NCBI RefSeq assembly: GCF_900101785.1
Contig: NZ_LT629688.1
Location: 1,550,001 to 1,614,000 of the forward strand
DNA: 64,000 nt
Reading direction: 5' to 3'
DNA from: Auraticoccus monumenti
GTDB lineage: Bacteria; Actinomycetota; Actinomycetes; Propionibacteriales; Propionibacteriaceae
In this document: positions 19,756-55,327 of the stretch, piece after piece
How positions within the stretch are numbered: position 1 is the stretch's first letter
How the letters are laid out: every line of letters begins with the position of its first letter
Notes under the pieces: model-generated
Told to the model about the DNA's origin: nothing
Database searches by the model: none
The model's input: only the letters and a program-made list of their open reading frames with translations
Position numbers and translations under genes: made by a program

Positions 19756-19795
19756 CTGCGCCACAGCTGCGGCATCCCCGGATGACTGCCGAGCC

Positions 19796-19880: not shown

Positions 19881-19939
19881 ACCTTCCATGATCAATTCGG
19901 GGATGCCGCTCCCTCGGGCACCTATGAAAGGCGAGGACG

Positions 19940-20185
19940 ATGACACGCAGGGCAGGGACGCAAGGGGCGGCTAGTGAGGCTGGGACGGCTCGCGCAGTAA
20001 AAGTCGAAGCGCTGTGGACGGTCCAGGACGTCAGCTCGTACTTGGGGGTGCCAGCGTGCACGGTCTACGCCTGGCGCAGTGCCGGGACGGGTCCTCCGGG
20101 TCGCCTGGTGGGTCGACGGCTCCGTTACCGTCCCGAGGACGTTCTCGAGTGGGTTGATCAGCTGCCGACAGCGGTGGTGTCGTGA
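19940..20185 (+). CDS. xis: excisionase-like helix-turn-helix protein
   Basis: An 81-residue protein with a MerR-like excisionase HTH: ALWTVQDVSSYLGVPACTVYAWRSAG, wing PGRLVGRRLRYRPEDVLEWV. Such proteins bend DNA at attachment sites and direct the integrase to excision. The stop overlaps the integrase GTG by 4 bp, so the two are translationally coupled, as in other AICEs. AGGCGAGGA precedes the ATG. Gene symbol by position and fold. Confidence 0.85.
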   Translation: MTRRAGTQGAASEAGTARAVKVEALWTVQDVSSYLGVPACTVYAWRSAGTGPPGRLVGRRLRYRPEDVLEWVDQLPTAVVS

Positions 20186-21339
20186 AGCCGATTGGCTTGG
20201 GCGAGCACGGGCAGGTGACGGTGCGTCAGGAGGGCGGTCACCACGTCGCCTACGTGCGGTATCGCGACTACGGGGGGCGCCTGCGCCGGATCAAGCGGCT
20301 GGGTAGCTCGAAGGCGGATGCTTCTCGGCGGGCGCTGGCTGCGGTGGCGGAGTCGGTGGCGGCGGGGGTTGGCGGTGACTTCACGCGGTCGAGCAAGTTG
20401 GCCGCTGGGCTGGAGGGCTGGCTGGCGATGTTCGACGGCCTGGTCGAGCGGGGCCGCCGATCTCCGACGACTCGTGATCTGTACGCCGGTGTGACGGGCC
20501 GGCTGATCGTTCCGGCGATCGGTGGTCTGCGGCTGGGGGAGTTGACCGCGCCGACTCTCGACCGGTTCCTGCAGGCGATCTTGCGGGAGAAGGGTCCTGC
20601 GACGGCCAAGCTCTGCCGTGCGGTGCTCTCGGGTGCCTGTGGCTGGCTGGTTCGCCAGGGTGGCTTGGTCACGAATCCAGTGCGTGATCTGACGCCGATC
20701 GAGTTGGAGGGCGGGCGTGCCGCGAAGGCGTTGACGATGCAGGAGGTGCGGCGCTGGCTGGCGCATCTTGATGCTGATGAGTTCGCTCGCCGTCACGACC
20801 TGCCCGAGCTAGCCCGGTTCATGCTGGCCACCGGGCTCCGAGTTGGTGAAGCGGTCGGGGTGACGTGGGCGGACGTCGACCTGGACGCTGGGGTCGTCAT
20901 GGTGCAACGGACGATCGTCCCGGTTGCAGGGAAGGGGCTCCTGGCGAAGCGGGTGAAGTCGAAGGCGTCTGAGCGTGGGTTGATCATGCCCGCGTGGTGC
21001 GTGACGTTACTGCGAGCGAGACGGGTTCGCCTTGGTGCGTTCGAAGGTCCGGTGTTCCCCGACTCGCGGGGTGGTTGGCGCGACCGGGGCAACGTGGGTA
21101 AGGCCTTCCGCCGTGTGCGCGGCGACGACTTCAACTGGGTCACGACGCACACATTTCGCAAGACGGTCGCGACGCTGCTGGACGAGAGTGGAGCGACGGC
21201 TCGCATGATCGCTGACCAGCTCGGGCACTCGCGGGTGTCGATGACTCAGGACGTCTACTTGGGTCGTCGTGCTGCGAACGCTCCGAACGCGGTGGCTCTG
21301 GAGGCCTACGATCCTGACGCCGCCACCCCGTCGAGCTGA
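20182..21339 (+). CDS. int: tyrosine site-specific integrase
   Basis: A 385-residue phage-type tyrosine recombinase. An N-terminal arm-binding domain (about 1-65) and a SAM-like core-binding domain (about 70-170) precede the catalytic domain. Visible catalytic residues are R220 (TGLRVGEA), H323 and R326 (HTFRK), H349 (LGHSRVS) and the nucleophile Y359 (DVYLG). All are present, so it should be active. It lies 74 bp from attR and catalyses recombination within the tRNA-Lys 3' end. The GTG start overlaps xis. Confidence 0.93.
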   Translation: MKPIGLGEHGQVTVRQEGGHHVAYVRYRDYGGRLRRIKRLGSSKADASRRALAAVAESVAAGVGGDFTRSSKLAAGLEGWLAMFDGLVERGRRSPTTRDLYAGVTGRLIVPAIGGLRLGELTAPTLDRFLQAILREKGPATAKLCRAVLSGACGWLVRQGGLVTNPVRDLTPIELEGGRAAKALTMQEVRRWLAHLDADEFARRHDLPELARFMLATGLRVGEAVGVTWADVDLDAGVVMVQRTIVPVAGKGLLAKRVKSKASERGLIMPAWCVTLLRARRVRLGAFEGPVFPDSRGGWRDRGNVGKAFRRVRGDDFNWVTTHTFRKTVATLLDESGATARMIADQLGHSRVSMTQDVYLGRRAANAPNAVALEAYDPDAATPSS

Positions 21340-21342
21340 CCT

Positions 21343-21368
21343 GCATTAGTCCCCACACTAGTCCCCAT
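21343..21368. repeat. right AGTCCCCA repeat pair (possible integrase arm sites)
   Basis: GCATTAGTCCCCA at 21343-21355, followed by CTAGTCCCCAT at 21358-21368. The first 13 bases match 9669-9681 exactly and in direct orientation. It lies between the integrase stop and attR, the usual place for arm sites. Function inferred. Confidence 0.5.
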
Positions 21369-21412
21369 CTGGGGTGGTGGCTGGTCATGGGATGCCCGCA
21401 ATGGTGCGGTTC

Positions 21413-21451
21413 TGGTGGGCCCCGTGGGGATCGAACCCACAACCCGCGGAT
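21413..21451. repeat. attR: 39-bp core within tRNA-Lys
   Basis: Exact copy of 9539-9577, running from the CCA end to the 3' side of the anticodon stem. The crossover must lie inside this 39-bp identity. Confidence 0.93.
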
Positions 21452-21488
21452 TAAAAGTCCGCTGCTCTGCCAGTTGAGCTAGAGGCCC
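21413..21488 (-). tRNA. tRNA-Lys (UUU)
   Basis: A 76-base gene including encoded CCA. The acceptor stem GGGCCTC pairs with GGGGCCC with one G-U pair. The D arm contains AGCTCAACTGGCAGAGC, the anticodon loop CTTTTAA gives anticodon TTT, and the T loop GTTCGATCC is standard. The 3' 39 bases form attR of the AICE. The tRNA remains complete because the element carries the matching 3' end. Confidence 0.95.
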
Positions 21489-37027: not shown

Positions 37028-39004
37028 ATGTCCATGGTTTCTGTGCCGTCCTCGATCCGCCGCACCGGCAGGATCGCGGCTGCGGCCGGGGTGGTGGGCG
37101 CGCTGTGCGTCACCGGCCTCGCCGTCCCCGCCCAGGCGAAGACGCCGACCCACTCCGAGCCGATCGTGCAGGACCTGGTCAGCAAGCAGCTCCGCACCCA
37201 GCAGCTGGCCTGGGAGGCGTGCGAGTTCGCCGACGTCGCCGAGCCGACCCGCTCGCGGCTGCTGGCCACCCCGGGTCTGCAGTGCGCCACCATCACGGTG
37301 CCGCGCGACTGGTACCACGCCAAGGACGGCAACACGATCGAGGTCGAGATCTCCAAGGTGCCCGCGGCGGACCCGGCGAAGCGGCGCGGCATCATGCTGA
37401 TCAACCCCGGCGGCCCGGGCGGTTCGGGTCTGCCGTGGAGCGCGTCGATGGCCCAGCGCTCGCCGGACGTCCACCAGGTCTACGACACCGTCGGCTTCGA
37501 CCCGCGCGGCGTGGGGGAGAGCACCGAGCTGGTCTGCACCTACGACGCCAACGCCGAGACGCAGGTCGAGTTCGCCCGCAACTACGCCGAGGGCTGCCTG
37601 GACAACCCGCTGACCCCGTTCATCACCACCCGGCAGACCACGCTGGACATGGACTTCATCCGGCACCTGCTCGGCGAGAAGAAGATGAACTACGTCGGCT
37701 ACTCCTACGGGACCTGGCTGGGCGGCAGCTACGCGGCCACCTTCCCGTCCAAGACCGACCGCTTCATCCTCGACTCCGCCACCGACATGTCCACCGGGAC
37801 GCTGGAGCGCACCTGGGACCTGCAGCCGGCCACCCGCGACCGCCAGATGCAGGACATGCTGATGCCCTACATCGCCCGCCACGACGACGTCTACGGCATG
37901 GGCGACACCGCGATCGAGGCCCGGCGGGCCTTCGAGGAGGCCGGCGGCTTCGACAACTTCATCAACCTGATCATCGGCGTCAACACCGTGATCCAGGCCA
38001 TGTACTCCACCGAGCTGTACCCCGAGGCCGCGGCGGTCCTCTCCGCGCTGGCCGAGGTCAACGCCGGCGGGGTCCGCGAGGACTTCCGCCTGCCCTACAG
38101 CGACGAGGCCCAGGCCGCGATGACGGAGTACCTCGGTCAGATCAAGGAGCACGTCGACGGTCTGGACATCCCCGCCGAGTCCAAGAAGTCGGTGGCCGCC
38201 AAGCTCGACCAGGCCCTGGAGGTCTACGCCCAGAACGCCCTGGCGGTGAACGGCCAGATCGACGGCCAGATCGCCGAGCAGCTCGAGGGCCAGATCAGCG
38301 ACGGGCAGATCAGCGACGGGCAGATCAGCGACGGGCAGATCAGCGACGGGCAGATCAGCGACGGGCAGATCGCCGACGCGCCGCAGCTGACCACCGACCT
38401 GGGTGCGTTCGAGGCGATCCGGTGCCAGGACGGGCAGTGGACCACCGACATCGAGACCTGGGAGGCCAAGCTCACCGAGGGCTTCCAGAAGGCGCCGCTG
38501 ACCGGCATGCTCAACTCCATCCCGGTCTGCGCCTTCTGGCCGGCCCAGGAGAAGGGCTTCCCCGAGGTCAAGAACAAGGACCTGCCGGGCGTGCTCTTCC
38601 TGCAGTCGGAGTTCGACGCGGCCACCGCCTACGAGGGGGCCGAGGCGTCGATCAAGAAGTTCAAGAAGTCCAAGGCCGTCGTGGTCGACAACGAGGGCAG
38701 CCACGGTCTCTTCCCCTACGGCACCGAGTGCGTCGACGACCCGGCCCTGACCTGGCTGATCGACGGCCGGCTGCCGAAGCAGAAGTGGAACGGCTGCGTC
38801 GGCGTCCCGCTGCCCGGGGAGATCTACACCTACAACGTCGGTGGCAGCATCAACCAGAAGGGCCGGCTGCGCGGCTTCAAGATGGAGTCGAAGTCGGTGA
38901 AGGAGGCCAACGAGATGGTCGCCGAGCTGCGCCGCGAGGCCGGCATCACCGACATCCCGGGTGCCGAGGACGCCACCCTGGCCGCCGCCCTTCCGGTGAG
39001 CTGA
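37028..39004 (+). CDS. secreted S33-type (tripeptidyl aminopeptidase-like) alpha/beta hydrolase
   Basis: A 658-residue exported hydrolase. A signal peptide with a twin-Arg-poor Sec pattern (IRRTGRIAAAAGVVGALCVTGLAVPAQA) ends near residue 38. The oxyanion loop is NPGGPGGSG (about 127), the nucleophile S226 lies in GYSYGTW, and a late His is in NEGSHGLFPYG. The C-terminal TAP-like domain has the Cys/Trp segment PVCAFWPAQ. Relatives release N-terminal tripeptides or prolyl peptides outside the cell. A pentapeptide tract (GQISD)5 with diverged flanks (about residues 410-450) is inserted before the last domain. AGAAAGGA precedes the start. Confidence 0.87.
   Translation: MSMVSVPSSIRRTGRIAAAAGVVGALCVTGLAVPAQAKTPTHSEPIVQDLVSKQLRTQQLAWEACEFADVAEPTRSRLLATPGLQCATITVPRDWYHAKDGNTIEVEISKVPAADPAKRRGIMLINPGGPGGSGLPWSASMAQRSPDVHQVYDTVGFDPRGVGESTELVCTYDANAETQVEFARNYAEGCLDNPLTPFITTRQTTLDMDFIRHLLGEKKMNYVGYSYGTWLGGSYAATFPSKTDRFILDSATDMSTGTLERTWDLQPATRDRQMQDMLMPYIARHDDVYGMGDTAIEARRAFEEAGGFDNFINLIIGVNTVIQAMYSTELYPEAAAVLSALAEVNAGGVREDFRLPYSDEAQAAMTEYLGQIKEHVDGLDIPAESKKSVAAKLDQALEVYAQNALAVNGQIDGQIAEQLEGQISDGQISDGQISDGQISDGQISDGQIADAPQLTTDLGAFEAIRCQDGQWTTDIETWEAKLTEGFQKAPLTGMLNSIPVCAFWPAQEKGFPEVKNKDLPGVLFLQSEFDAATAYEGAEASIKKFKKSKAVVVDNEGSHGLFPYGTECVDDPALTWLIDGRLPKQKWNGCVGVPLPGEIYTYNVGGSINQKGRLRGFKMESKSVKEANEMVAELRREAGITDIPGAEDATLAAALPVS
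38291..38380 (+). repeat. 15-bp in-frame tandem repeat in the peptidase gene
   Basis: CAGATCAGCGACGGG is repeated exactly five times (38291-38365) and a diverged sixth unit follows (38366-38380). It encodes GQISD repeats. Length change by replication slippage would keep the frame. Confidence 0.95.
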
Positions 39005-43016: not shown

Positions 43017-43437
43017 GGGCGAGTGGCCCCAAGACGTTGGGACCCGTCTGCTGGTCGAGACGACATCTCGGGGCGAGTCGCCGCAGGGTGCTCGTCCTGA
43101 CCCGCCGGCTCTCGAGCGGCTGATGGGGCGAATCGCCGGGAGAGGTCGGGTCCGTGGTGCGGGTGGCGACATCTCGGGGCGAGTCGCCACAGGGTGCTGG
43201 TCCTGACCCGCCGGCTCTCGAGCGGCTGATGGGCGAGTCGCCGGGAGGGGTCGGGTCAGTGGTGGATGTGGCGACATCTCGGGGCGAGTCGCCGCGCGAC
43301 GCGTGAGCCTTCGACGCCCCGCCGACGTCGCCACCCGCCCTCGGGGCAGGTGCCGAGTGGCTCCGCTGCTGGGGCGAGTGGCCCCGAGAGGTCGGGTCCC
43401 TGGGGGTTGAGGCGACGTCTCGGGGCGAGTCGCCACC
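43017..43437. repeat. cluster of REP-like GGCGAC...GTCGCC palindromic repeats
   Basis: TCTCGGGGCGAGTCGCC occurs at about 43067, 43173, 43278 and 43419, each preceded by GGCGAC or CGAC plus AT/GT. The element therefore reads GGCGAC-N12-GTCGCC. Two consecutive units of 106 and 105 bp (43062-43167 and 43168-43272) are near-identical. Variants of GGGCGAGTSGCC followed by GAGAGGTCGGGTC lie between. Non-coding, between menE and the GH3 gene. Confidence 0.85.
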
Positions 43438-43462: not shown

Positions 43463-46246
43463 TCAGCGGGCGGTCACCTCCAGGAGCTGGGCAGGGCCAG
43501 TGAGGGTGACCTCGAGGTCGTGGGGGCCGGCGTCGGGGGCCTCGAGGACGAGCTCGCGCGGGATCCCGTCCGTGGTCGCCTCGACGACCTCGCCCCGCGA
43601 GCCGCGCAGCCGGGCCACCACCTGTCCCGCGCACGCGTCGGCGCCCTCGGCCGGCCGCAGCCGCAGCACCACCTGACCGGCGCCCTCGGTCCGGAGCCGG
43701 CCGTAGCGGGCCGTCCCGGAACGGTGGTCACGTGCCTGCAGGGCGTGCCCGCGGAGGTCCCCGGTGGCCACGATCTCCAGCCCGGACCAGCTGTCGAAGC
43801 ACTCCGCGCGCACCGGCCGGACCCGCGGCCGGTGCCAGCCGCGCTCGACGACCGGGACGTCCACCTCCAGCTCCGCCCGGACGTCGGAGGCCGAGGCCGC
43901 CACCTCCAGCCGGTGCCGCGCCGGGCGCCACCAGCCGTCCGCGGTGACGTCCCACAGCGACAGCCGCTCCAGCGGCACCTCGAGCTCCACCCGGACGGTC
44001 TCCCCGGGAGCCACGTCGACGCGGCGGTGGGCCAGCAGCCGCCGCGGTGCGTCCTCGGCCCCCAGCGCCCGGCCGTAGACCTGCACCACCTCCGGCGCCG
44101 TCCGCCCGCCACCGGACACCTCCACCTGCACCGTGACGACGCCGTCGCCGACCGAGGCCCGGGCGCCGTGCCAGGCGGTGGTCGCGTAGTGCAGGCCGTG
44201 GCCCAGCGCGAACCGCGGCTCCACCGGGGACCACCAGGTGGTCTGCCTGCCCAGCAGGTCGTAGTCGAAGCGGTCCCCGACGTCGGCCTCGTGCCGCGGC
44301 CAGGGCTGGGGGAGGCGGCCCCGCGGCTCGGCGTCGCCGGTGAGGACGTCCAGCACGGCGTGCCCGAGCTCCTGGCCGCCGTGGCTGCTCCACACCACCG
44401 GCAGCGCGGCCAGGTCGTCGTCCAGCACGTAGGGGTAGCTGGACACGACCACGAGCACCACCTGGCGCCCGGCCCGGACCAGCGCGCGGACCAGCGCCAC
44501 CTGGGTGGGTGGCAGCCGGAGGTCCGGCCGGTCCGCGGTCTCCCGGCCGTTGAGGTGCGGGTCGTTGCCCACCGCCACCAGCACGGTCTCAGCGCGTCCG
44601 GCCACCTCGACCGCCTCGGCCAGCCCGGAGCGGACCACCGACACCTCGAACCGGGCCGAGTGGCGCGCCGTCCGCGCACCGACCTCCGCCACGCCGTCGG
44701 GACGCAGGTGCACCCAGCGGCCGGTACCCAGGTGCAGCAGCGACGCGGTGCCGTCGGGGTGCCGCTCGACCCGGAAGCTCTGCTGCACCTCCCAGCCGCC
44801 GACCCGCTCCGCGTCGGCCACCAGGGCCCGTCCGTCGGGGGAGCCCAGCAGCCCGGTGGACGTCCGCAGCGTCAGCACGCCGTCGCCCCAGTCCCGCCAG
44901 CGCCACTCCGCCGCCCCGGCCAGCCCGGACGTCCGCAGCGTCGCCCGGGCGTCGAGGCCCAGCCAGCGCGGCGCCGCAGCCGCACCACCGGGCGCGGCCG
45001 CACCACCGGCTCCGGCCCCGTCGGCCACCCGCAGCACCACCAGGTCGTCGCCCGGGACGCTGGCCGGGGCGTCGGCATCGCGCTCGCGGACCGCGTCGGC
45101 CAGGCTGACCCGGTAGGGGAGGCTGCCGCTGTACCAGTCGGTCAGCACCTCGTCGGCCAGCGGGCCCACCACCGCCAGCCGGCGTCCCGCGGGCAGCGGG
45201 AGCGCGCCGCCGGGGTTGGTCAGCACCACCACCGCGGCGGTGGCGGCCTCCCGGGCCAGGGCCGCGTGCTCGGCCGAGGCCACGTGCTCGGCGCCCAGCG
45301 AGGCCCACGGGTCCTCCCCGTCCAGCTCCCCGGTGAGCTCGCGCAGCGACAGCACCCGGGCGGCCGCGCGGTCGACGTCCTCCTCGCTGAGCAGCCCGCG
45401 CTCCAGCGCCTGCCCCAGCCGCTCCAGCGTGGTGGCCGGGCGGTCGTCGTCCTCGGTGACGGAGTCCACCCCCGCCCGGACCACCAGGGCGAAGGCCTCG
45501 ACCGGGTCCAGCCCGGGCCGCTGCACCCGGAAGACGTTCCCGGGGGCGTAGGCGTCCGACACCACCGCCAGCGAGTGCGGGCTGGCCTCGCGGACGGCGT
45601 CGAGCAGGTCCGCCGACAGGTGCGCCGCCCGTCCGTTGACCAGGTTGTAGGAGGGCATCACCGCCCCCACCACCCCGGCCGACAGCGGGCCCAGGAAGGC
45701 GGGCAGCTCGTACTCGTGCAGCACCCGCGGCGGTACCTGCACCGACACCACGTCGCGGTGGTCCTCGACGTTGTAGGCGCAGAGGTGCTTCAGCGTCGGG
45801 GTCACCCGCCACCAGCGCGGGTGGTCCCCTCGCAGCCCGCCGGCGTAGGCGGTCGCCAGCTCGGCGGTGAGGTGCGGGTCCTCGCTGTAGCCCTCCTCGT
45901 TGCGTCCCCAGGCGGGGTGGCGCAGGGGGTTGACCACCGGCGCCCAGACGTTGAGCCCGACGCCCGGGTCGAGGTTGTGCATCGCCCGCGCCTCGGTGCC
46001 CACCGCCTCGCCGACCCGCCGCAGCAGGTCGGGGTCCCAGGTGGCGCCCAGCCCCACGGCCTGGCAGAAGACGGTGGCCCGACCGAGCCACGCCACGCCG
46101 TGCAGGGCCTCGTTGCCGGTGTGGGAGGCGGCCAGCCCGACGTGCTCCACGACCGGGGTCCGCTGGTGCAGCAGGGACACCTTCTCCGACGTGCTGAGCG
46201 CCTCCAGCAGGGCCCTCACCCGGGCGGACGGTCTCGGTTCGGTCAC
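43463..46246 (-). CDS. GH3 family beta-glycosidase (beta-glucosidase/xylosidase type)
   Basis: A 927-residue enzyme. The GH3 TIM-barrel domain (about 1-300) has the substrate-binding K153-H154 (TPTLKHLCAYN), GRNEEGYSEDP and nucleophile D231 in VVSDAYAPG. The alpha/beta sandwich domain follows with LPLPAGRRLAVVGPLAD, a fibronectin-like domain (VVQVYGR, LLAHRRVDVAPGETVRVELEVPL), and a C-terminal carbohydrate-binding-like module (about 800-927). A PA14-like insert may lie at about 440-540. No signal peptide, so it acts on imported oligosaccharides. Divergent from the ABC operon with a LacI operator between. Likely splits beta-1,4-glucosyl or xylosyl ends. Confidence 0.9.
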   Translation of the reverse strand: MTEPRPSARVRALLEALSTSEKVSLLHQRTPVVEHVGLAASHTGNEALHGVAWLGRATVFCQAVGLGATWDPDLLRRVGEAVGTEARAMHNLDPGVGLNVWAPVVNPLRHPAWGRNEEGYSEDPHLTAELATAYAGGLRGDHPRWWRVTPTLKHLCAYNVEDHRDVVSVQVPPRVLHEYELPAFLGPLSAGVVGAVMPSYNLVNGRAAHLSADLLDAVREASPHSLAVVSDAYAPGNVFRVQRPGLDPVEAFALVVRAGVDSVTEDDDRPATTLERLGQALERGLLSEEDVDRAAARVLSLRELTGELDGEDPWASLGAEHVASAEHAALAREAATAAVVVLTNPGGALPLPAGRRLAVVGPLADEVLTDWYSGSLPYRVSLADAVRERDADAPASVPGDDLVVLRVADGAGAGGAAAPGGAAAAPRWLGLDARATLRTSGLAGAAEWRWRDWGDGVLTLRTSTGLLGSPDGRALVADAERVGGWEVQQSFRVERHPDGTASLLHLGTGRWVHLRPDGVAEVGARTARHSARFEVSVVRSGLAEAVEVAGRAETVLVAVGNDPHLNGRETADRPDLRLPPTQVALVRALVRAGRQVVLVVVSSYPYVLDDDLAALPVVWSSHGGQELGHAVLDVLTGDAEPRGRLPQPWPRHEADVGDRFDYDLLGRQTTWWSPVEPRFALGHGLHYATTAWHGARASVGDGVVTVQVEVSGGGRTAPEVVQVYGRALGAEDAPRRLLAHRRVDVAPGETVRVELEVPLERLSLWDVTADGWWRPARHRLEVAASASDVRAELEVDVPVVERGWHRPRVRPVRAECFDSWSGLEIVATGDLRGHALQARDHRSGTARYGRLRTEGAGQVVLRLRPAEGADACAGQVVARLRGSRGEVVEATTDGIPRELVLEAPDAGPHDLEVTLTGPAQLLEVTAR

Positions 46247-46306
46247 GGTGGCTCCTCGTCGAGCAGGGGTCCTGTGGGCGGTGGGGCGAGCAGTTACAGT
46301 CCATCA

Positions 46307-46320
46307 TCGAAGCGCTTCGA
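46307..46320. promoter_or_regulatory. LacI-type operator
   Basis: TCGAAGCGCTTCGA is a perfect 14-bp palindrome with the central GCGC expected of LacI-family sites. It lies 60 bp from the GH3 start and 44 bp from the solute-binding-protein start, so it can repress both. The LacI gene at 50012-51016 is the likely binder. Confidence 0.82.
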
Positions 46321-46364
46321 CGACAAGGGGTCCCGAGGCGCACCGTCGTCACAAAGGAGTGATC

Positions 46365-48020
46365 GTGACCCAGTCATCGCCCTTCACCCAGGCCCGTCCC
46401 GAGCTGACCCGCCGCCGTTTCCTCGGCGCCGTCGGCATCGGCGCCTCGGCCCTGGCCGCCACCCCGCTGCTCAGCGGCTGCGCCACCGGTGAGGTCGTCC
46501 CGCAGCAGGCCCCGGTGGTCGACGACGCCGTGCTGCCGCGCTTCGTCCCCGTCGAGTACGCCACGCCCGACATCCCCTCGGTCAACGGGTCGATCCCCGG
46601 CTACACCAGCTGGCCCACCGAGGTCGTCCGGGCCGTGCCGACCCCGCCCGGGGACGGACGCACCATCAAGGCCATGACGCCGCTGTGGGGCACCATCCCC
46701 TCGGCCGACGGCAACCAGTACTACGAGGCCGTGAACGAGCTGATCGGCTCGAAGGTCGAGTTCCAGATCACCGACGGCAACGTCTACGGCGACAAGCTGG
46801 CCACCGTGCTGGCCTCGCCCCGCGACGTCCCGGACTGGGTCTCGGTCCCGGGGTGGAACTTCCCGCCGCGCTTCGGCTCCGAGATCGTCGGCAACGTCTT
46901 CGCCGACCTGACGCCCTTCCTGTCCGGTGACAAGGTGACGAAGTACCCGCACCTGGCCAACATCCCCACCGACTCGTGGAAGATGTGCGTCTTCAACGGC
47001 AAGCTCTACGGCCTGCCCTACCCCGACTCCATCGTCCGCGACGCGATCTTCTACCGCGACGACCTGATGGACGAGCTGGGCATCACCGTCTCGATCAGCT
47101 CCGCCGAGGACCTGCTGGAGCTGGCCCAGGAGGTCACCGACCCCTCTGCCAACCGCTGGGGCGCGGAGGACATGTGGAACGCCGCCGCCCAGATCTTCGG
47201 CGTGCCGCCGAAGTGGGCGATGGTCGACGGCACGCTGGTGAACCGGGTGGAGACCGAGGAGTACCGGGCCGCGCTGGACTGGACCACCCGTGTCTTCGCC
47301 TCCGGTGCCGTCCACCCCGACGCGGTGGCCGGGCAGACCGGTGAGGCCAAGCAGCGCTTCCAGGCCGGGCGCTCGCTGATCATGCCCGACGGCGTGGGCG
47401 GCTGGCACGAGGCGCTGCGGGACAACCTGGCGAACAACCCGACCTACTCCCAGACCCCGTTCCCGCCCTTCCCCGCCGACGGCGGGGAGATCGTCTACTG
47501 GAAGTCGCCCGGCGCGGGCATGTTCTCCTTCATCAAGAAGACCGACGACACGGCGATGATCGAGCAGATCCTGGCCGCCGCCGACGTCCTCGCCGCACCG
47601 TTCGGCACGCTGGAGTACCAGACCGTCAACTACGGCGTCGAGGGTGTGCACTGGGAGCGCGGCAGCAAGGGCACGCCGGAGCTGACCGACCTCGCGGCCA
47701 AGGAGCTGCAGCCGACCTACATCTTCCTGGCCGACCCGCCGGTGGTGGAGTCGAAGGTGCAGTACCCGGGCTACGTCGAGGCCATGACCGGCTGGATGGC
47801 CGAGGTCTCCGAGCACCTGCAGGAGCCGCCGTTCTACGGGATGCAGATCACCCCGCCGGCCCAGTACGCCTCGATCGACCAGCCGTTCACCGACCTCGAG
47901 GCCGACATCCCGCGGGGCCGCAAGACGCTGGCCGACCTGGACGAGGCCATCGAGACCTGGCGCTCGTCGGGCGGCGAGGAGCTGCGGGCCTTCCACCAGG
48001 ACCTGCTGGACCAGCAGTGA
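46365..48020 (+). CDS. ABC importer solute-binding lipoprotein
   Basis: A 551-residue extracellular sugar-binding protein. The signal has a twin-arginine motif (TRRRFLGAVG, about 16-25) and a lipobox LLSGC, so it is exported folded and lipid-anchored. The mature part resembles the large LipO/YtcQ-type family 1 binding proteins for oligosaccharides. These work with LplB/LplC-type permeases, which follow directly. GTG 46365 is preferred, with GGAG 5 bp upstream; an in-frame GTG two codons earlier is too close to that site. First gene of the operon, behind the LacI operator. Confidence 0.9.
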   Translation: MTQSSPFTQARPELTRRRFLGAVGIGASALAATPLLSGCATGEVVPQQAPVVDDAVLPRFVPVEYATPDIPSVNGSIPGYTSWPTEVVRAVPTPPGDGRTIKAMTPLWGTIPSADGNQYYEAVNELIGSKVEFQITDGNVYGDKLATVLASPRDVPDWVSVPGWNFPPRFGSEIVGNVFADLTPFLSGDKVTKYPHLANIPTDSWKMCVFNGKLYGLPYPDSIVRDAIFYRDDLMDELGITVSISSAEDLLELAQEVTDPSANRWGAEDMWNAAAQIFGVPPKWAMVDGTLVNRVETEEYRAALDWTTRVFASGAVHPDAVAGQTGEAKQRFQAGRSLIMPDGVGGWHEALRDNLANNPTYSQTPFPPFPADGGEIVYWKSPGAGMFSFIKKTDDTAMIEQILAAADVLAAPFGTLEYQTVNYGVEGVHWERGSKGTPELTDLAAKELQPTYIFLADPPVVESKVQYPGYVEAMTGWMAEVSEHLQEPPFYGMQITPPAQYASIDQPFTDLEADIPRGRKTLADLDEAIETWRSSGGEELRAFHQDLLDQQ

Positions 48021-49033
48021 GCACCCTCGACCAGGCCTCGGCGCGGGTGGCGCGCGCCGAGGCGGAGGAGCGGGAGGAGCGGCGGCGCGACGCGCGCGCC
48101 CCCGCCCCGCCACCGCAGGTGCGTCGTCGCACGCTGGCCACCCGCTGGCGCCGCGACCGGCCGCTGGTGCTGATGACGCTGCCCGCGGTGGTGCTGCTGG
48201 CGGTGTTCGCCTACGTGCCGATGCTGGGCAACATCGCGGCCTTCCAGCAGTACTCGCCCTACAGCGGGTTCCTGGCCAGCCCCTTCGTCGGCCTGCAGAA
48301 CTTCGCCCGGATCTTCACCAACGCCGCCTTCATCAACTCGGTGGTGAACACCCTGACGATCACCGTGTTCCAGCTGGTGTTCTTCTTCCCGGTGCCGATC
48401 GTGCTGGCGCTGCTGCTCAACAGCGTCATCTCGCCCAAGGTGCGGGTGTTCGTGCAGTCGGTGGTGTACCTGCCGCACTTCTTCAGCTGGGTGCTGGTGG
48501 TGACGATCTTCCAGCAGATCCTCGGCGGGGCCGGCCTGGTGTCGCAGACGCTGCGGGCCAACGGGTACTCCGGCTTCGACCTGATGACCAACCCCGACAC
48601 CTTCCTGGTGCTGATCACCCTGCAGTCGGTCTGGAAGGACGCCGGCTGGGGGATCATCATCTTCCTGGCCGCGCTGAGCACCGTCGACCCGGCGCTGCAC
48701 GAGGCCGCGGCCTCCGACGGTGCCGGTCGCTGGCGGCGGATGTGGCACATCACCCTGCCCGCGCTGAAGCCGGTGGTCATCCTGCTGCTGATCCTGCGCC
48801 TGGGTGACTCGCTCACCGTCGGCTTCGAGCAGCTGATCCTGCAGCGCGAGGCGGTGGGCGCCGACGTCTCGGAGGTCGTCGACACCTTCGTCTACTACCA
48901 GGGCGTCGTCTACGGCGACTGGAGCTTCGCCGCCGCAGCAGGCCTGGCCAAGGGCGTGGTCAGCCTGGCCCTGGTCCTGGGAGCCAACAAGCTGGCCCAC
49001 GTCCTCGGGGAGTCAGGGGTGTACCAACGATGA
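48017..49033 (+). CDS. ABC sugar permease, LplB type
   Basis: A 338-residue inner-membrane permease with six helices. A charged Arg/Glu-rich N-terminus is followed by LVLMTLPAVVLLAVFAYVPML. The EAA loop reads HEAAASDGAGRWRRMWHITLPALKP, which contacts the ATPase. It forms the channel with the next gene product. The GTG start overlaps the binding-protein stop by 4 bp. Imports the sugar bound by the lipoprotein. Confidence 0.92.
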   Translation: MSTLDQASARVARAEAEEREERRRDARAPAPPPQVRRRTLATRWRRDRPLVLMTLPAVVLLAVFAYVPMLGNIAAFQQYSPYSGFLASPFVGLQNFARIFTNAAFINSVVNTLTITVFQLVFFFPVPIVLALLLNSVISPKVRVFVQSVVYLPHFFSWVLVVTIFQQILGGAGLVSQTLRANGYSGFDLMTNPDTFLVLITLQSVWKDAGWGIIIFLAALSTVDPALHEAAASDGAGRWRRMWHITLPALKPVVILLLILRLGDSLTVGFEQLILQREAVGADVSEVVDTFVYYQGVVYGDWSFAAAAGLAKGVVSLALVLGANKLAHVLGESGVYQR

Positions 49034-50022
49034 CCACGTCCACCGGAGAGCAGACCGCCCCCGCGGCGGTCACCGCCACCGCGAAGACCGCCGGCGTCGG
49101 GCCGGGGTCACCACGCCGTCGCCGGCGCAACAGCCAGCGACCCGTCTGGGAGGAGCCGCCCAGCCCGCTCGGCCTCGGCCTCAAGGGGCTGGTGCTGGTC
49201 CTGGTGGTGCTGGCCGTGGCCTTCCCGCTCTACACCGTGGTGCTGACCAGCTTCTCCACCCAGGCGGAGACGCTGCGCACCGGTGGTCTGGTGGTGGTCC
49301 CCGGTGAGCTCACCGTGGAGGCCTACCGCCAGATCCTCGGCGGCGGCGTGGTCACCCGGGCGGCCGTGGTCAGCGTCGGCATCACCGCGGTCGGCACCGC
49401 CCTGTCCATGGTGGTCTCGGTGATGGCGGCCTACGGGCTGTCCCGACCGGGTTCGCTGCTGCACACCCCGCTGCTGTTCGTCTTCCTGGTCACCATGTTC
49501 TTCGGTGCCGGGCTGATCCCCACCTACCTGCTGGTCAGCGGGCTGGGGCTGATCGACAGCTACTGGGCGCTGATCCTCCCCGGGGCGGTGTCGGCGTTCA
49601 ACATCCTCATCCTGCGCAACTTCTTCATGGGCATCGAGGGCGCGATCCTCGACGCGGCCAGGATCGACGGGGCCAGCGAGTGGCGGATCCTGCTCCAGGT
49701 GGTCATCCCGCTGTCCGGCGCGGTGCTGGCGGTGGTGGCGCTCTTCTACGGCGTCGGCTACTTCAACGCCTTCTTCAACGCCGTGCTGTACATCAACGAC
49801 AACGCCAAGTGGCCGCTGCAGCTGGTGCTGCGCTCCTACGTGCTGCAGGGGGTGGCTCTCCCCGGCGGTGGTGACACCAGCGGTGCGGTCAGTGGGGCGG
49901 TGGCCGGGCTGCCGATCAAGATGGCCGTCGTGGTGCTGGCGGTGGTGCCCATCCTGATGGTCTACCCCTTCGTCCAGCGGCACTTCACCAAGGGAGTCAT
50001 CTTCGGTGCCATCAAGGGTTGA
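49030..50022 (+). CDS. ABC sugar permease, LplC type
   Basis: A 330-residue permease, partner of the preceding gene (4-bp ATGA overlap). Six helices; the EAA loop reads LDAARIDGASEWRILLQVVIPLSGA, and the end YPFVQRHFTKGVIFGAIKG is the typical LplC ending. The operon stops here without an ATP-binding subunit, so a shared MsiK-like ATPase encoded elsewhere must energise it (known for many actinobacterial sugar importers). It ends 11 bp into the convergent LacI gene. Confidence 0.92.
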   Translation: MTTSTGEQTAPAAVTATAKTAGVGPGSPRRRRRNSQRPVWEEPPSPLGLGLKGLVLVLVVLAVAFPLYTVVLTSFSTQAETLRTGGLVVVPGELTVEAYRQILGGGVVTRAAVVSVGITAVGTALSMVVSVMAAYGLSRPGSLLHTPLLFVFLVTMFFGAGLIPTYLLVSGLGLIDSYWALILPGAVSAFNILILRNFFMGIEGAILDAARIDGASEWRILLQVVIPLSGAVLAVVALFYGVGYFNAFFNAVLYINDNAKWPLQLVLRSYVLQGVALPGGGDTSGAVSGAVAGLPIKMAVVVLAVVPILMVYPFVQRHFTKGVIFGAIKG

Positions 50023-51016
50023 GCCGGTGGGCCCGGACGGTCGGTTCGAGCAGCCGCACCTCCGGGCCCGTGGCCCCGGCCAGTTGGGCGGTCACCATGT
50101 CCACGGCGATCTCCCCGATCCGGGCGCCCGGGACCTCGATCCAGTCGCAGTCGACCGGGACCGAACCGACCAGGTCGGCCGGGCAGACCAGCACCAGGGC
50201 GACGTCCTCGCGGCCGGCCCGGCGCAGCGCCTCCACCACCCCGGGCACCGCCAGCTCGTTGTGCACCACCAGCGCGTCCAGCGCCGGCTCGCGCTCCAGC
50301 AGCTCGGTGACCGCCGAGATGCCCCCGCCGCGGCTGCCCTGGGCCGCCACGGCGAGCGCCGGGGCGTCCAACCGGGCCACCGCCTCGCCGTAGCCGCGCA
50401 TCAGCCGCTCGGCGAAGGACGTCCGGCGGGCCAGCACGGTGGGCGCGGCCCCGATCAGGCCGATCCGACGACGACCGGCGGCGGCGAGGTGGGCCACCGC
50501 CTGGCGCCCCACGCTGACGAAGTCCAGGTCGACGCAGGCCAGCGGGCCGGGGTCGTCGGGCAGACCGATCAGCACCGCGGGCTGGCGCATCGCCCGGAGC
50601 TCGGGCAGCCGCGGGTCCTCGCGCTCGACGTCCATCACGATGGCGGCGTCGACCATCGAGCCCGACGCCACCCGGTCCAGGCTGTGGGGGTCGTCGTTGG
50701 TCAGCAGCAGGACGTCCAGGTCGTGGCTGCGGGCCCGGGTCACCACACCGGCCACGAACTGCAGGATCACGCTGACGTTGACGTCCACCCGCAGCGGGGC
50801 GACCAGCGCCAGCACGTGGGTGCGGCGCGAGGCCAGCGCCCGGGCACCCGCGTGCGGCCGGTAGCCCAGCCGGTCGACCGCGCTCTGGATCCGCTGGCGG
50901 GTGGCCTCGGAGATGGGGCGCTTCCCGCTGAGCGCGTAGGACACGGTGGACACCGACACCCCGGCCTCGCGGGCGACGTCGCCGATGGTGGCCTCGCCCG
51001 GACCGCTGGTCGTCAC
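50012..51016 (-). CDS. LacI family regulator of the glycoside locus
   Basis: A 334-residue repressor. The N-terminal LacI HTH is ATIGDVAREAGVSVSTVSYALSGKRPIS and the hinge is RLGYRPHAGARALAS. The ligand-binding domain is of the periplasmic-binding type (LALVAPLRVDVNVSVILQFVAGV, and the end EVRLLEPTVRAHRL). GTG 51016 is chosen because the HTH starts seven residues later. TAGAGT lies 7 bp upstream on the minus strand, a possible -10 box giving a leaderless mRNA. It sits between importer and glycosidase genes and should respond to an imported oligosaccharide. Confidence 0.9.
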   Translation of the reverse strand: MTTSGPGEATIGDVAREAGVSVSTVSYALSGKRPISEATRQRIQSAVDRLGYRPHAGARALASRRTHVLALVAPLRVDVNVSVILQFVAGVVTRARSHDLDVLLLTNDDPHSLDRVASGSMVDAAIVMDVEREDPRLPELRAMRQPAVLIGLPDDPGPLACVDLDFVSVGRQAVAHLAAAGRRRIGLIGAAPTVLARRTSFAERLMRGYGEAVARLDAPALAVAAQGSRGGGISAVTELLEREPALDALVVHNELAVPGVVEALRRAGREDVALVLVCPADLVGSVPVDCDWIEVPGARIGEIAVDMVTAQLAGATGPEVRLLEPTVRAHRLNP

Positions 51017-51059
51017 CGGCCAGACTCTAGTGGCGCGACGCCGCGGAAGGAGCACGACG

Positions 51060-53045
51060 ATGACCGGTCCTGACGCTGCACCCACCTGGTTCGGGGCGGA
51101 CTGGAACCCCGAGCAGTGGGACCGCGGCACCTGGCGCGAGGACGTCGAGCTGATGGTCCGGGCCGGGGTCAACCTGGCCACCGTGGGCGTCTTCAGCTGG
51201 TCCAGCCTCGAGCCGCGCCCCGGTGAGCTGACGCTGGACTGGCTGGTGGACGTCCTGGACCTGCTGCACGAGCACGGGATCACCGCCGACCTGGCCACCC
51301 CCACGGCCTCCCCGCCGCCCTGGCTGGGGGTGCGCTGGCCGGAGACCCGGTCGGTCACCGACACCGGCGTCCGGATGAGCCACGGCTCCCGCAACCACTT
51401 CTGCCCGTCCTCGCCGGTCTACCGGGAGCGGTGCCGCTGGATCGTGCAGGCCCTTCTCGACCGGTGTGCCGGCCACCCCGCGGTGGCGCTGTGGCACGTC
51501 GGGAACGAGTACGGCCAGACCTGCCACTGCGACCTCTGCGCCGCGGCCTTCCGCACCTGGCTGGCCGAGCGGTACGGCGACCTGGCGACGCTGAACCGCG
51601 CCTGGGGGACGGCGGTGTGGAGCCAGGGGTACGCCGGCTGGGACGAGGTGGTCCCGCCCCGGGCCGCCCCCTACGTGCACAACCCCGCCCAGCGGCTGGA
51701 CTTCCGGCGCTGGGTCTCAGACGCCCAGCTGGAGCTCTACCTGGAGCAGCGGAGGCTGATCCGGGAGGTCGATCCGGTGACGCCGGTGACCACCAACTTC
51801 ATGGGCTTCTTCCCCGGGATCGACTACCGCCGCTGGGCCCCGCACCTGGACGTGGTCAGCGACGACTCCTACCCCGACCCGGCCGACCCCGGCTCGGTCG
51901 TCGGCAGCGCGATGACCGCGGACCTGATGCGCGGGCTGGCCGGCGACCGGCCCTGGATGCTGATGGAGCAGGCCTGGAGCTCGGTCAGCTGGCGCGAGCA
52001 CAACGTGGCCAAGACCCCGGCCCGGATGCGGCGCGAGGCCTTCCAGGCCCTGGCCCGCGGCGCGGTCGGGCTGTGCTGGTTCCAGTGGCGCCAGGCCGCC
52101 GACGGCCCGGAGCGGTTCCACTCCGCGCTGCTGCCCGCCACCGGACCCGACACCCGCTCCCACCGGGCCGTCCGCGAGCTGGGGGCGGAGGTGGCCCGGC
52201 TGGGACCGCTGGGCGGACGTCCGGTGGCCGAGGTCTGCCTGGTCCTCGACTGGCCGTCGTGGTGGGCCGGCACCGAGCGGGGGCTGCCCAGCACCCGGCT
52301 CGACCCGCTGGAGCAGCTCCGCCGCTGGTACGCCGCCTGCTGGGCCGCCGGGGTGACGGTCGACCTGCGCGGGGTCGAGGACGACCTGTCCGGCTACCGC
52401 GTGGTGCTGGCCCCCTCGGCCTTCCTGCTGGAACCGGCCGCGGCGGCGGGTCTCCGTGAGCGCGTCACCGCCGGGGCGCACCTGGTGCTCGGCCCGTTCA
52501 GCGGCGTGGTCGACGCCCGCAGCCGGATCCTGCCGCCCCCGCTGCCGGCCGGGCTGGCCGAGCTGCTGGGGGCCCGGGTGGAGGAGTGGCTCCCGCTGCC
52601 GGAGCCGGTGGCACTGCGTCCCGGACCGGACGCCGACCTGGCCGGCGGCACCGCCACCACCTGGGCGGAGTGGCTCAGCACCGACGGTGCGGAGGTGTGG
52701 CTGACCTTCGAGGGCGGCCCCGCCGACGGCGGCCCCGCCCTGGTCAGCCGCGCCTCCGGAGCCGGCCGGATCAGCTACCTGGCCTGCGTCCCCGACGAGG
52801 ACCTGCTCTCCCGGTGGCTGCTCGGCTGCCTGCGCACCGCCGGGGTGGCGGTGGCCGAGGACCACCCCGAGGGCGTGGAGGTGGTCCGCCGCGGCGAGCA
52901 CCTGGTCGTCGTCAACCACGCCCCCGGGCCCCGCCTGCTCCCGCTCGCCCGACCCGCCACCGACCGCCTGACCGGACGACGCCACGAGGGCGTCGTCCCG
53001 CTGGACCCCGACGCCGTGTGCGTCCTGATCGAGGAGGACTCGTGA
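51060..53045 (+). CDS. GH42 beta-galactosidase
   Basis: A 661-residue cytoplasmic glycosidase. The TIM barrel has acid/base E150 (WHVGNEYGQ) and nucleophile E303 (LMEQAWSS). The zinc-site cysteines CHCDLC follow the acid/base, as in GH42. A trimerisation domain (about 390-600) and a small C-terminal beta domain complete the family layout. It removes terminal beta-galactose. GGAAGGAGC precedes ATG 51060. Its stop overlaps the alpha-xylosidase start by 4 bp, tying the two activities together. Confidence 0.92.
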   Translation: MTGPDAAPTWFGADWNPEQWDRGTWREDVELMVRAGVNLATVGVFSWSSLEPRPGELTLDWLVDVLDLLHEHGITADLATPTASPPPWLGVRWPETRSVTDTGVRMSHGSRNHFCPSSPVYRERCRWIVQALLDRCAGHPAVALWHVGNEYGQTCHCDLCAAAFRTWLAERYGDLATLNRAWGTAVWSQGYAGWDEVVPPRAAPYVHNPAQRLDFRRWVSDAQLELYLEQRRLIREVDPVTPVTTNFMGFFPGIDYRRWAPHLDVVSDDSYPDPADPGSVVGSAMTADLMRGLAGDRPWMLMEQAWSSVSWREHNVAKTPARMRREAFQALARGAVGLCWFQWRQAADGPERFHSALLPATGPDTRSHRAVRELGAEVARLGPLGGRPVAEVCLVLDWPSWWAGTERGLPSTRLDPLEQLRRWYAACWAAGVTVDLRGVEDDLSGYRVVLAPSAFLLEPAAAAGLRERVTAGAHLVLGPFSGVVDARSRILPPPLPAGLAELLGARVEEWLPLPEPVALRPGPDADLAGGTATTWAEWLSTDGAEVWLTFEGGPADGGPALVSRASGAGRISYLACVPDEDLLSRWLLGCLRTAGVAVAEDHPEGVEVVRRGEHLVVVNHAPGPRLLPLARPATDRLTGRRHEGVVPLDPDAVCVLIEEDS

Positions 53046-55327
53046 GATTCACCGACGGCTACTGGCAGCTCCTGCCCGGGGTCAGCGTGCTGCGGCCCAG
53101 GCTCGTGGAGCAGGTGGACCAGGGTCCCGGCCGGCTGGTGCTGCACTGCCCGACGGCCCCCATCCGGCACCGCGGGGACACCCTCAACCGCCCGGTCGTC
53201 ACGGTCACCGTCGACTCCCCGGCCGAGGACGTGATCGGGGTCCGGATCGAGCACCACACCGGACGCCGGCCCCGACGCCCCTCCTTCGAGATCAGCACCG
53301 ACACCGACGTCGACGTCCGGGTCACCGAGGACGAGGAGACCGTCACCCTCACCTCCGGCGGGCTCAGCGCCCGGTTCCGGCGCGACGCCTGGGGCTGTGA
53401 CTTCCTGGCCGGGGACCGGGTGCTGACCAGCTCCACACCCCGCAGCATCGGGGTGGTCACCGACGGCGAGGGACGCTCCTTCGTGCACGAGCAGCTCGGC
53501 CTCGGCGTCGGCGAGCACGTGTTCGGGCTGGGGGAGCGGTTCGGCGCCTTCGTCCGCAACGGGCAGTCGGTCGACACCTGGAACGCCGACGGCGGGACGT
53601 CCTCGGACCAGTCCTACAAGAACGTCCCCTTCTACCTCTCCGACCGCGGCTACGGCGTCTTCGTCGCCCACCCCGAGCGGGTCAGCTTCGAGGTCGGCAC
53701 CGAGGTGGTCTCACGGACCCAGTTCTCCGTCGAGGGCCAGCACCTGCAGTACTACGTCATCCACGGACCGACGCCGGCGGAGATCCTCAAGCGCTACACC
53801 GCGCTGACCGGGCGCCCGGCCACCGTCCCGGACTGGTCCTACGGGCTGTGGCTGTCGACCTCCTTCACCACCGAGTACGACGAGGCGACCGTCACCTCCT
53901 TCATCGACGGCATGGCCGAGCGCGACCTGCCGCTCAGCGTCTTCCACTTCGACTGCTTCTGGATGCGTCAGTTCCACTGGTGCGACTTCGTCTGGGACCC
54001 GGCGACGTTCCCCGACCCGGCCGGCATGCTGGGCCGGCTGCGCGAGAAGGGGCTGCGCATCTCCGCCTGGATCAACCCCTACATCGCCCAGCGCTCGGAG
54101 CTCTTCGCCGAGGGGGCCGAGAACGGCTACCTGCTGCGCACCACCGAGGGCGACGTCTGGCAGTGGGACATGTGGCAGGCCGGGATGGGCCTGGTCGACT
54201 TCACCAACCCCGACGCCGTTGAGTGGTACACCTCCAAGCTCAAGACGCTGCTGGACCAGGGGGTCGACGCCTTCAAGACCGACTTCGGCGAGCGGATCCC
54301 CACCGAGGGTGTCCGCTGGCACGACGGCTCGGACCCGCAGCGGATGCACAACTGGTACGCCCAGCTGTACAACAAGGCGGTCCACGAGCTGCTGGCCACG
54401 CAGCGGGGGGCCGACCAGGCCGTGCTCTTCGCCCGCTCGGCCACCGCCGGCGGCCAGGCCTACCCGGTGCACTGGGGCGGGGACTGCGAGTCCACCTTCG
54501 TCTCGATGGCGGAGTCGCTGCGCGGCGGGCTCTCGCTGGGGCTCTCGGGCTTCGGCTACTGGTCCCACGACATCGGCGGCTTCGAGGGCACCCCGGACCC
54601 TGCCGTGTTCAAGCGCTGGGTGGCCTTCGGGCTGCTCTCCTCGCACTCCCGGCTGCACGGCTCCAGCTCCTACCGGGTGCCCTGGGCCTTCGACGAGGAG
54701 GCGGTGGAGGTCACCCGACTCTTCACCCGGCTCAAGATGTCGCTGATGCCCTACCTCTCCCGGGTGGGTCGCGAGGCGCACGAGGAGGGGCTGCCGATGA
54801 TGCGGGCGATGGTGCTGCAGTACCCGCACGACCGCTCCGCCGTCACCGTCGACACCCAGTACATGCTGGGTGACGACCTGCTGGTGGCACCGGTCTTCGA
54901 CCTTGAGGGATGGGCCGACTACTACCTCCCCGACGGCACCTGGACGCACCTGCTGACCGGGGAGCAGCGGCAGGGGCCTGGGTGGCACCGCGAGCGGTAC
55001 CCGATGGACTCGCTGCCGGTCTTCGTCCGCCCGGGGGCCGTGCTGCCCCGCGGTGCCGTCCAGGACCGGCCGGACTACGGCCACCACGACGGCGTGACCC
55101 TGGAGGTGCGCGAGCTGGCCGACGGTCAGAGCACCACCGTGACCGTGCCGGTCGGGGACCAGCAGGCCCGCTGGGTGGTCTCGCGCTCCGGGGACACGCT
55201 GACCGCCTCGGCGGAGGGCACCGACCGTCCCTGGCGGCTGGTGCTGGTGGGGGCCGGTGGGGCGCCGTCGGCCGGGGTCAGTGCCTCGGGGGCGACGTCG
55301 GTCACCCTCCGGCAGCCGGCTGGCTGA
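53042..55327 (+). CDS. GH31 alpha-xylosidase (YicI type)
   Basis: A 761-residue enzyme. The N-terminal beta-sandwich contains GLGERFGAFVRNGQSVDTWN, a YicI-type substrate loop. The barrel has SVFHFDCFWMRQFHWCDFVWD, nucleophile D414 in AFKTDFGERIP and acid/base D481 in HWGGDCEST. The KTDFGE and WMR/WCDF segments distinguish alpha-xylosidases from alpha-glucosidases. It releases alpha-1,6-xylose from xyloglucan oligosaccharides or isoprimeverose. GTG start overlaps the GH42 stop (GTGA). No signal peptide. Confidence 0.93.
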   Translation: MRFTDGYWQLLPGVSVLRPRLVEQVDQGPGRLVLHCPTAPIRHRGDTLNRPVVTVTVDSPAEDVIGVRIEHHTGRRPRRPSFEISTDTDVDVRVTEDEETVTLTSGGLSARFRRDAWGCDFLAGDRVLTSSTPRSIGVVTDGEGRSFVHEQLGLGVGEHVFGLGERFGAFVRNGQSVDTWNADGGTSSDQSYKNVPFYLSDRGYGVFVAHPERVSFEVGTEVVSRTQFSVEGQHLQYYVIHGPTPAEILKRYTALTGRPATVPDWSYGLWLSTSFTTEYDEATVTSFIDGMAERDLPLSVFHFDCFWMRQFHWCDFVWDPATFPDPAGMLGRLREKGLRISAWINPYIAQRSELFAEGAENGYLLRTTEGDVWQWDMWQAGMGLVDFTNPDAVEWYTSKLKTLLDQGVDAFKTDFGERIPTEGVRWHDGSDPQRMHNWYAQLYNKAVHELLATQRGADQAVLFARSATAGGQAYPVHWGGDCESTFVSMAESLRGGLSLGLSGFGYWSHDIGGFEGTPDPAVFKRWVAFGLLSSHSRLHGSSSYRVPWAFDEEAVEVTRLFTRLKMSLMPYLSRVGREAHEEGLPMMRAMVLQYPHDRSAVTVDTQYMLGDDLLVAPVFDLEGWADYYLPDGTWTHLLTGEQRQGPGWHRERYPMDSLPVFVRPGAVLPRGAVQDRPDYGHHDGVTLEVRELADGQSTTVTVPVGDQQARWVVSRSGDTLTASAEGTDRPWRLVLVGAGGAPSAGVSASGATSVTLRQPAG

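Follow-up and report, generated by a model that had tools for sequence, protein, structure and literature searches.

A predicted locus of the Gram-positive ABC type for the utilisation of xyloglucan oligosaccharides, with a LacI-family regulator, in Auraticoccus monumenti

Which sugar is served by a cluster of three glycoside hydrolases (GHs), a sugar importer and a LacI-family regulator in the actinobacterium Auraticoccus monumenti, and which characterised system does this cluster represent? The locus occupies positions 43463-55327 of a 64,000-nucleotide stretch, referred to below as the window, which corresponds to positions 1550001-1614000 of the complete 4.46 Mb genome (contig NZ_LT629688.1). 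We consider it highly probable that the locus serves the utilisation of xyloglucan oligosaccharides and belongs to the Gram-positive ATP-binding cassette (ABC) type, as a LacI-controlled variant of a system proven in a clostridium. Xyloglucan is a major hemicellulose of the primary plant cell wall, and among Gram-positive bacteria the literature examined describes its uptake in detail for Firmicutes alone. In many soil Actinobacteria, including Cellulomonas, the locus and its relatives would allow xyloglucan use to be recognised genetically and would supply a candidate pair of regulator and operator for it; they also offer a testable example of oligosaccharide scavenging by a bacterium with no clear xyloglucanase.

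The locus consists of seven genes arranged in two divergent arms. The GH3 gene (43463..46246, minus strand) is transcribed leftward, and the genes encoding a solute-binding protein (SBP; 46365..48020, plus strand, with an alternative start at 46359), permease 1 (48017..49033, plus strand) and permease 2 (49030..50022, plus strand) are transcribed rightward. The lacI-type gene (50012..51016, minus strand; start inferred from the position of the helix-turn-helix) lies tail to tail with permease 2, and beyond it are located the genes for GH42 (51060..53045, plus strand) and GH31 (53042..55327, plus strand), the GTG start codon of the latter overlapping the GH42 stop codon. An earlier analysis made without database searches (the sequence-only reading) had proposed that GH31, GH42 and GH3 enzymes, an importer and LacI are grouped here, and all seven genes were confirmed with Pfam and NCBIfam models. 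Pfam assigned the next recognised genes to other families: UbiA and an AMP-binding enzyme flank the locus on the left, and a zinc dehydrogenase follows on the right. The interval from the AMP-binding gene to GH3 contains imperfect tandem repeats of 51-54 bp (43070-43294).

The GH31 enzyme is, by family, clearly an alpha-xylosidase of the YicI type. It scores 1219 bits on the NCBIfam alpha-xylosidase model NF007940 (cut-off 606 bits) over residues 1-737 of 761, and 310 bits on PF01055, of which it is the sole match in the genome (E 0.001). Its four best sequence matches in the Protein Data Bank (PDB) are all named yicI (924-945 bits) and align over nearly the whole length of the protein. The motifs KTDFGE, HWGGDC, FDCFW and STSFTT are intact; we take these to contain the nucleophile, acid/base and -1 subsite residues of YicI. 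An alpha-glucosidase function of this enzyme was ruled out, since it reaches only about 260 bits on two NCBIfam alpha-glucosidase models compared with 1219 on the alpha-xylosidase model. The same scores bear on the idea of a generic cluster for scavenging galactosides and glucosides, with no single substrate and a GH31 enzyme acting on alpha-glucosides. GH42, GH3 and GH1 enzymes often have a broad specificity, which would suit such a cluster; nevertheless, the presence in the genome of a single exact operator-like site (see below) fits a narrow regulon, and together with the GH31 scores it makes this explanation extremely improbable.

The GH42 enzyme matches PF02449 (433 bits, cut-off 21) and PF08532, and retains HVGNEYG and LMEQA, presumably the catalytic motifs of the family. 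It is predicted to be a beta-galactosidase removing galactose from the L side chains of xyloglucan oligosaccharides. The GH3 protein was recognised as a family member by PF00933, PF01915 and PF14310, and it contains VVSD at residues 228-231 and GRETADR at residues 567-573, which we assume to be the nucleophile and acid/base motifs, respectively. About 150 extra residues without any Pfam match are inserted in its C-terminal GH3 domain. This exo-glycosidase is predicted to be a beta-glucosidase acting on de-xylosylated backbone glucose. The three enzymes are probably cytoplasmic: inspection of their N-termini by eye revealed nothing signal-like, and the highest hydropathy of any 12-residue segment within the first 45 residues was 0.82 (GH3), 1.42 (GH42) and 0.91 (GH31), compared with 1.88 for the SBP. 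These observations agree with the intracellular digestion envisaged from the sequence.

The SBP (551 aa; PF01547) has the N-terminus of a Tat-type lipoprotein, with the twin-arginine sequence RRRF, the lipobox LSGC and a score of 20.1 bits (cut-off 16.7) on TAT_signal_seq. The two permeases (PF00528) are of the CUT1 sugar-transporting type and contain the motifs EAAASDG (permease 1) and DAARIDGA (permease 2). No ATPase gene adjoins these three genes in a Pfam scan of the locus and its flanks. The closest named relative of the SBP is that of Auraticoccus cholistanensis (82% identity), and the protein is distant in sequence from every solved structure. It was modelled with AlphaFold from an alignment of 66 sequences (those of the window, of loci L043 and L044, and of 63 of the 80 named related loci described below, picked by hand), which gave a pLDDT of 89; a poor earlier model from ten sequences (pLDDT 60) was set aside. 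The predicted structure matches 5GUB (Z 22.1) and 5GX8 (Z 20.0), as well as AlgQ1/AlgQ2 (Z 20.3-21.4) and FusA (Z 18.6-20.5), with 417-440 residues of the latter proteins aligned at an rmsd of 4.0-5.0 A. Foldseek placed alginate-binding SBPs, 5GX8 and FusA at the top of its ranking. The model thus shares the fold of the Cluster G solute-binding proteins (AlgQ1/AlgQ2/FusA). As the N-glycan-binding protein NgtS (Z 20.1, rmsd 3.5) ranks level with FusA, the fold match reaches a group wider than AlgQ1, AlgQ2 and FusA.

These neighbours are the ones published for a xyloglucan-binding SBP, Athe_2052 of Anaerocellum bescii, and the protein of Auraticoccus is predicted to bind xyloglucan oligosaccharides, with the reservation that a common fold is no proof of a common ligand. 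According to the preprint PMC12710961, Athe_2052 is also composed of 551 aa, has AlgQ2, AlgQ1, FusA and 5GX8 as structural neighbours, lacks the DPNGNG motif, and binds the heptasaccharide XXXG at 14 nM. In the SBP of the window, a DPSANR stretch (residues 259-264) may, judged from sequence, be the counterpart of this EF-hand calcium motif. Neither the profile search nor the 50 fold matches listed included 9PMY, the structure of the xyloglucan SBP, an absence that is no argument against kinship. Paralogues of the SBP were also observed in Desertihabitans: a second importer (L042:7477-11047), whose SBP is 48-49% identical, has no GH3, GH42 or GH31 gene beside it in the fetched stretch, and two more distant ones occur at L043:6670-10351 (33%) and L044:9437-11047 (30-32%), one of them adjoining a DUF2264 protein.

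For comparative purposes, 80 named loci were collected with the SBP, and their genes were called by tblastn with fixed score limits. They originate from Cellulomonas, Oerskovia, Sanguibacter, Isoptericola, Arthrobacter, Kineococcus, Microlunatus, Occultella, Streptomyces and other genera; the counts are not independent, given the relatedness of the strains, the presence of some genomes twice (e.g. L077/L034) and the occurrence of two loci in some species. Both permeases were found in 78 of these loci, GH3 in 69, GH42 in 63, LacI in 59 and GH31 in 49, and 42 of the 80 combine GH3, GH42 and GH31. Since the gene set recurs in dozens of genomes, the grouping is not due to chance.

The neighbouring reading frames of these loci were clustered, and of the 30 clusters listed ten representatives were scanned, with further members checked using Pfam. 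A GH95 fucosidase is encoded in 21 of the 80 loci by direct match and in 26 by clustering (five members confirmed by Pfam), and a GH1 enzyme in 22 (two confirmed). Six loci, of the Streptomyces type, carry a GH74 beta-propeller protein with a twin-arginine leader recognised by eye; when one of these was compared with the PDB (E 1e-10), 12 of its 17 matches had names containing xyloglucan or xyloglucanase. Jointly, the fucosidase, GH74 and an exo-enzyme for beta-glucan point to xyloglucan. Other scanned representatives appear to be ordinary flanking genes (NucS, ATP synthase, amidohydrolase, YndJ, a ROK protein and a thiamine pyrophosphate enzyme). The substrate proposed in the sequence-only reading, xyloglucan oligosaccharides, is supported by the gene content of these loci, the modelled SBP fold and the analogy with Ruminiclostridium cellulolyticum discussed at the end of this text.

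Examination of the divergent GH3/SBP promoter region revealed a perfect 14-bp palindrome, TCGAAGCGCTTCGA, at 46307..46320; the genome contains no other exact TCGAANCGNTTCGA. The corresponding gap was inspected in 65 loci (the window included) of the 70 with a GH3 match; the five omitted (L144, L145, L149, L150 and L153) have a GH3/SBP gap of more than 1500 bases. Exact TCGAANCGNTTCGA is present in 62 of the 65 gaps, and in 64 if up to one mismatch is allowed. The gaps, totalling 29,854 bases, hold 101 exact matches, compared with 26 in the remaining 1,606,920 bases of the same loci, and each of these 26 copies precedes one of the seven genes by no more than 500 bases. In all nine same-family genomes (the host's own included, among 198 searched) with an SBP at least 50% identical, a site precedes the SBP match by no more than approximately 210 bases. 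In 52 gaps the exact motif is accompanied by LacI in the locus, two loci have LacI without the exact motif (L122 and L127), ten have the motif alone and one has neither (L129), which indicates that the motif and this LacI are usually, although not always, paired. We conclude that the palindrome is a probable operator, to which the LacI-family protein (PF00356, PF13377), a predicted repressor of the locus, would bind. A one-mismatch site is located at G000:C1:1842215. With three mismatches allowed, five sites occur in the window, a number that 15 of 100 shuffles also reach and that does not exceed chance, and a promoter scan of 46200-46400 found nothing. The literature search, confined to open-licence PMC articles, returned no paper with the operator strings and no description of this regulon in Actinobacteria, Cellulomonas or Streptomyces.

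The same palindrome was also observed 26 bases before a second, more distant GH31 gene (56% identity) in two same-family genomes (G013:C1:2951052 and G018:C27:45275), and the motif may therefore mark alpha-xylosidase genes more widely.

Several observations weigh against the assignment to xyloglucan oligosaccharides, the first group of which concerns the conservation of the locus and of its putative operator. In 31 of the 80 loci no strong GH31 match was found in the fetched stretch, partly because of contig ends; the six loci with GH74 have no GH31 match of at least 100 bits, and six SBP relatives stand beside none of GH3, GH42 and GH31. Single loci in the same family have neighbours of other types, namely two sulfatases (L038) and an amylase-family enzyme (L037). 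For ten of the 62 motif-bearing gaps, no LacI was detected in the locus; two of these loci are incomplete (L081 and L118) and eight are of the Streptomyces or Dactylosporangium type. The motif is not exclusive to such loci, as at least one copy is present in 78 of the 198 same-family genomes (14 for the reversed pattern), and similar sites probably serve other genes as well. No TCGAANCGNTTCGA site precedes the GH42-GH31 genes in the window; in several Cellulomonas loci such a site is located before GH31 or GH42.

The second group concerns the enzymes. Many galactosides are substrates of GH42 enzymes. With no more than 296 bits, the GH3 protein remains far below the cut-off of each of the seven NCBIfam GH3 models listed, the best of which is that of the xylan 1,4-beta-xylosidase Xyl3A; the first two of its PDB relatives carry the names beta-xylosidase (192 bits) and xylosidase (189 bits), and in L041 a GH5 gene whose product is nearest to a putative beta-xylosidase adjoins GH3. 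These similarities are what would be expected if the locus imported another oligosaccharide, containing alpha-xylose together with beta-galactose or beta-xylose, with xyloglucan as a minor substrate and GH3 as a beta-xylosidase or other exo-enzyme. The list of PDB matches also includes the GH3 enzyme CcBgl3B (175 bits) and isoprimeverose-producing GH3 enzymes (121-124 bits), and because of the latter it does not decide the specificity of GH3. We regard this alternative as unlikely, as the GH95, GH1 and GH74 enzymes of related loci fit a fucosylated xyloglucan with a beta-glucan backbone, and no xylanase or arabinofuranosidase family was detected among the ten cluster representatives scanned of the 30 clusters.

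The distribution of the GH31 enzyme has to be considered in the same context. Matches with E 1e-100 or better occur in 38 of the 198 same-family genomes (in 35 with an identity of at least 53%), and an SBP of at least 50% identity in only nine, i.e. a YicI-type GH31 is also present without this SBP. An enzyme encountered in other settings could act on isoprimeverose only, in a locus importing mainly small fragments such as isoprimeverose or small galactosides. Such a role is very unlikely: isoprimeverose as the substrate would leave the conserved GH42 and GH3 without a purpose, and characterised members of the fold that the 551-aa SBP is predicted to share with Athe_2052 prefer trimers or longer oligosaccharides according to the authors of PMC12710961.

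The last group of opposing observations relates to the extracellular step, for which the sequence-only reading had suggested looking elsewhere for a secreted endo-xyloglucanase. None was found in the genome except a secreted GH9 enzyme; GH16, GH45, GH26 and GH7 were not searched for. GH74 gave no match, an empty answer without a positive control (the same query produced one partial match in the 198 same-family genomes), GH5 and GH12 gave none although their positive controls matched, and GH44 gave none, but neither did its control genomes. The single GH9 protein contains CBM_4_9 modules and has a signal-like N-terminus as judged by eye; its best match is a cellobiohydrolase (484 bits), with the xyloglucanase BoGH9A at a greater distance (202 bits). 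R. cellulolyticum possesses GH9 enzymes with xyloglucanase activity (PMC4780118), and for this reason the secreted GH9 remains a candidate, the alternative being scavenging.

Taken as a xyloglucan-oligosaccharide system, the locus would function as follows. Oligosaccharides of the XXXG, XXLG and XLLG types, released extracellularly by Auraticoccus itself or by other organisms, would be captured by the lipoprotein SBP and imported through the two CUT1 permeases, presumably energised by a shared ATPase encoded elsewhere. Inside the cell, GH42 would remove beta-galactose, GH31 alpha-xylose from the non-reducing end and GH3 the exposed backbone glucose, in turns. Without an inducer, LacI would occupy TCGAAGCGCTTCGA in the intergenic region from which GH3 and SBP diverge. 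A broader and more tentative proposal, which we consider possible though rather doubtful, is that of an Actinobacteria-wide xyloglucan-oligosaccharide regulon, extending from Cellulomonas and Arthrobacter to Auraticoccus, with an undescribed LacI-family regulator and TCGAANCGNTTCGA as its operator. In loci of the Streptomyces type the operator might be served by another or an unlinked regulator, and Auraticoccus, seemingly without a dedicated xyloglucanase, might scavenge oligosaccharides released by its neighbours.

Some features unrelated to the locus were also recorded in the window. A probable integrative element of the actinomycete type extends over 10000-21488, with a dip in G+C content to 0.56 at 10-12 kb. 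Reading frames named by eye within it are (i) DNA-translocase-like (16472-17932), (ii) replication-like (18211-19755) and (iii) a phage-type integrase (20182-21339), which ends beside tRNA-Lys (21413-21488). At the edge of the low-G+C stretch, about eight in-frame copies of an 81-bp unit (13431-14078) encode a 27-aa repeat in a frame of 482 aa. Moreover, a perfect 15-bp repeat of 5.4 copies (38284-38378) encodes an SDGQI repeat in a hydrolase-like gene (37028-39004).

Comparison with known systems shows which parts of the locus are shared with each of them. The GH31 protein belongs to the same alpha-xylosidase family as YicI of Escherichia coli and has the same active-site motifs; in E. coli, yicI adjoins a symporter gene rather than an oligosaccharide ABC importer. 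The xyloglucan utilisation loci (XyGULs) of Bacteroidetes rely on outer-membrane uptake of the SusC/SusD type. As cited in PMC4780118, they follow the same side-chain logic of galactosidase, alpha-xylosidase and beta-glucosidase; in contrast to them, the locus of Auraticoccus encodes an ABC importer, its digestion is predicted to be cytoplasmic, and a Pfam scan found no SusC/SusD-type protein among its seven genes. The comparison with Bacteroidetes made in the sequence-only reading overlooks the Gram-positive precedent of R. cellulolyticum (PMC4780118), and Bacteroidetes were rejected as the reference.

Among Actinobacteria, the LacI-controlled cellobiose ABC operons (PMC3377646) have a similar composition, i.e. 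an SBP, permeases, an intracellular beta-glucosidase and LacI. Their CelR-type sites are also CG-centred palindromes, e.g. TGAGAGCGCTCTCA, although the half-sites differ (TGGGA/TGAGA compared with TCGAA in Auraticoccus), and the GH31/GH42 pair is not described in the portion of that article available. The motif CNAA(T/A)CGNTTCNNNG, located upstream of the cellulases of Cellulomonas flavigena (PMC3377646), partly resembles the palindrome. A counterpart of the importer is found in a different phylum: Athe_2052-2054 of A. bescii (PMC12710961) comprises a 551-aa SBP with the same structural neighbours and two CUT1 permeases with no local ATPase, and a GH31 alpha-xylosidase (Athe_2057) is encoded nearby.

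The appropriate precedent is R. cellulolyticum, in which Gal42A, Xyl31A and Glu3A, together with an ABC importer, have been shown to handle xyloglucan oligosaccharides (PMC4780118). Its genes Ccel_2451-2458 form divergent clusters encoding signal-less cytoplasmic GH42, GH31 and GH3 enzymes, a family-1 SBP (SBP2458) and two permeases (TMD2456/2457), and no ATPase gene adjoins them, as in the present locus. The authors also mention clusters of this kind in more remotely related Gram-positive bacteria, and a term search of the text available found neither Actinobacteria, Cellulomonas nor Streptomyces named. There are two main differences. The extracellular step is performed in R. cellulolyticum by cellulosomal GH9, GH44 and GH74 enzymes, whereas GH74 had no match in A. 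monumenti. Furthermore, the clostridial genes are under positive control by the two-component system XygS/XygR (PMC8576529), and a two-component sensor and an AraC-like regulator are present in all of the clusters of Fig. 12a of PMC4780118, whereas LacI and the TCGAANCGNTTCGA palindrome are found here. With LacI in the place of the two-component regulator, the locus is a variant rather than a member of the clostridial group. Its gene set nevertheless matches that of the proven R. cellulolyticum system, and is in this sense of a kind known to work, while it differs in phylum, regulator and extracellular partner.

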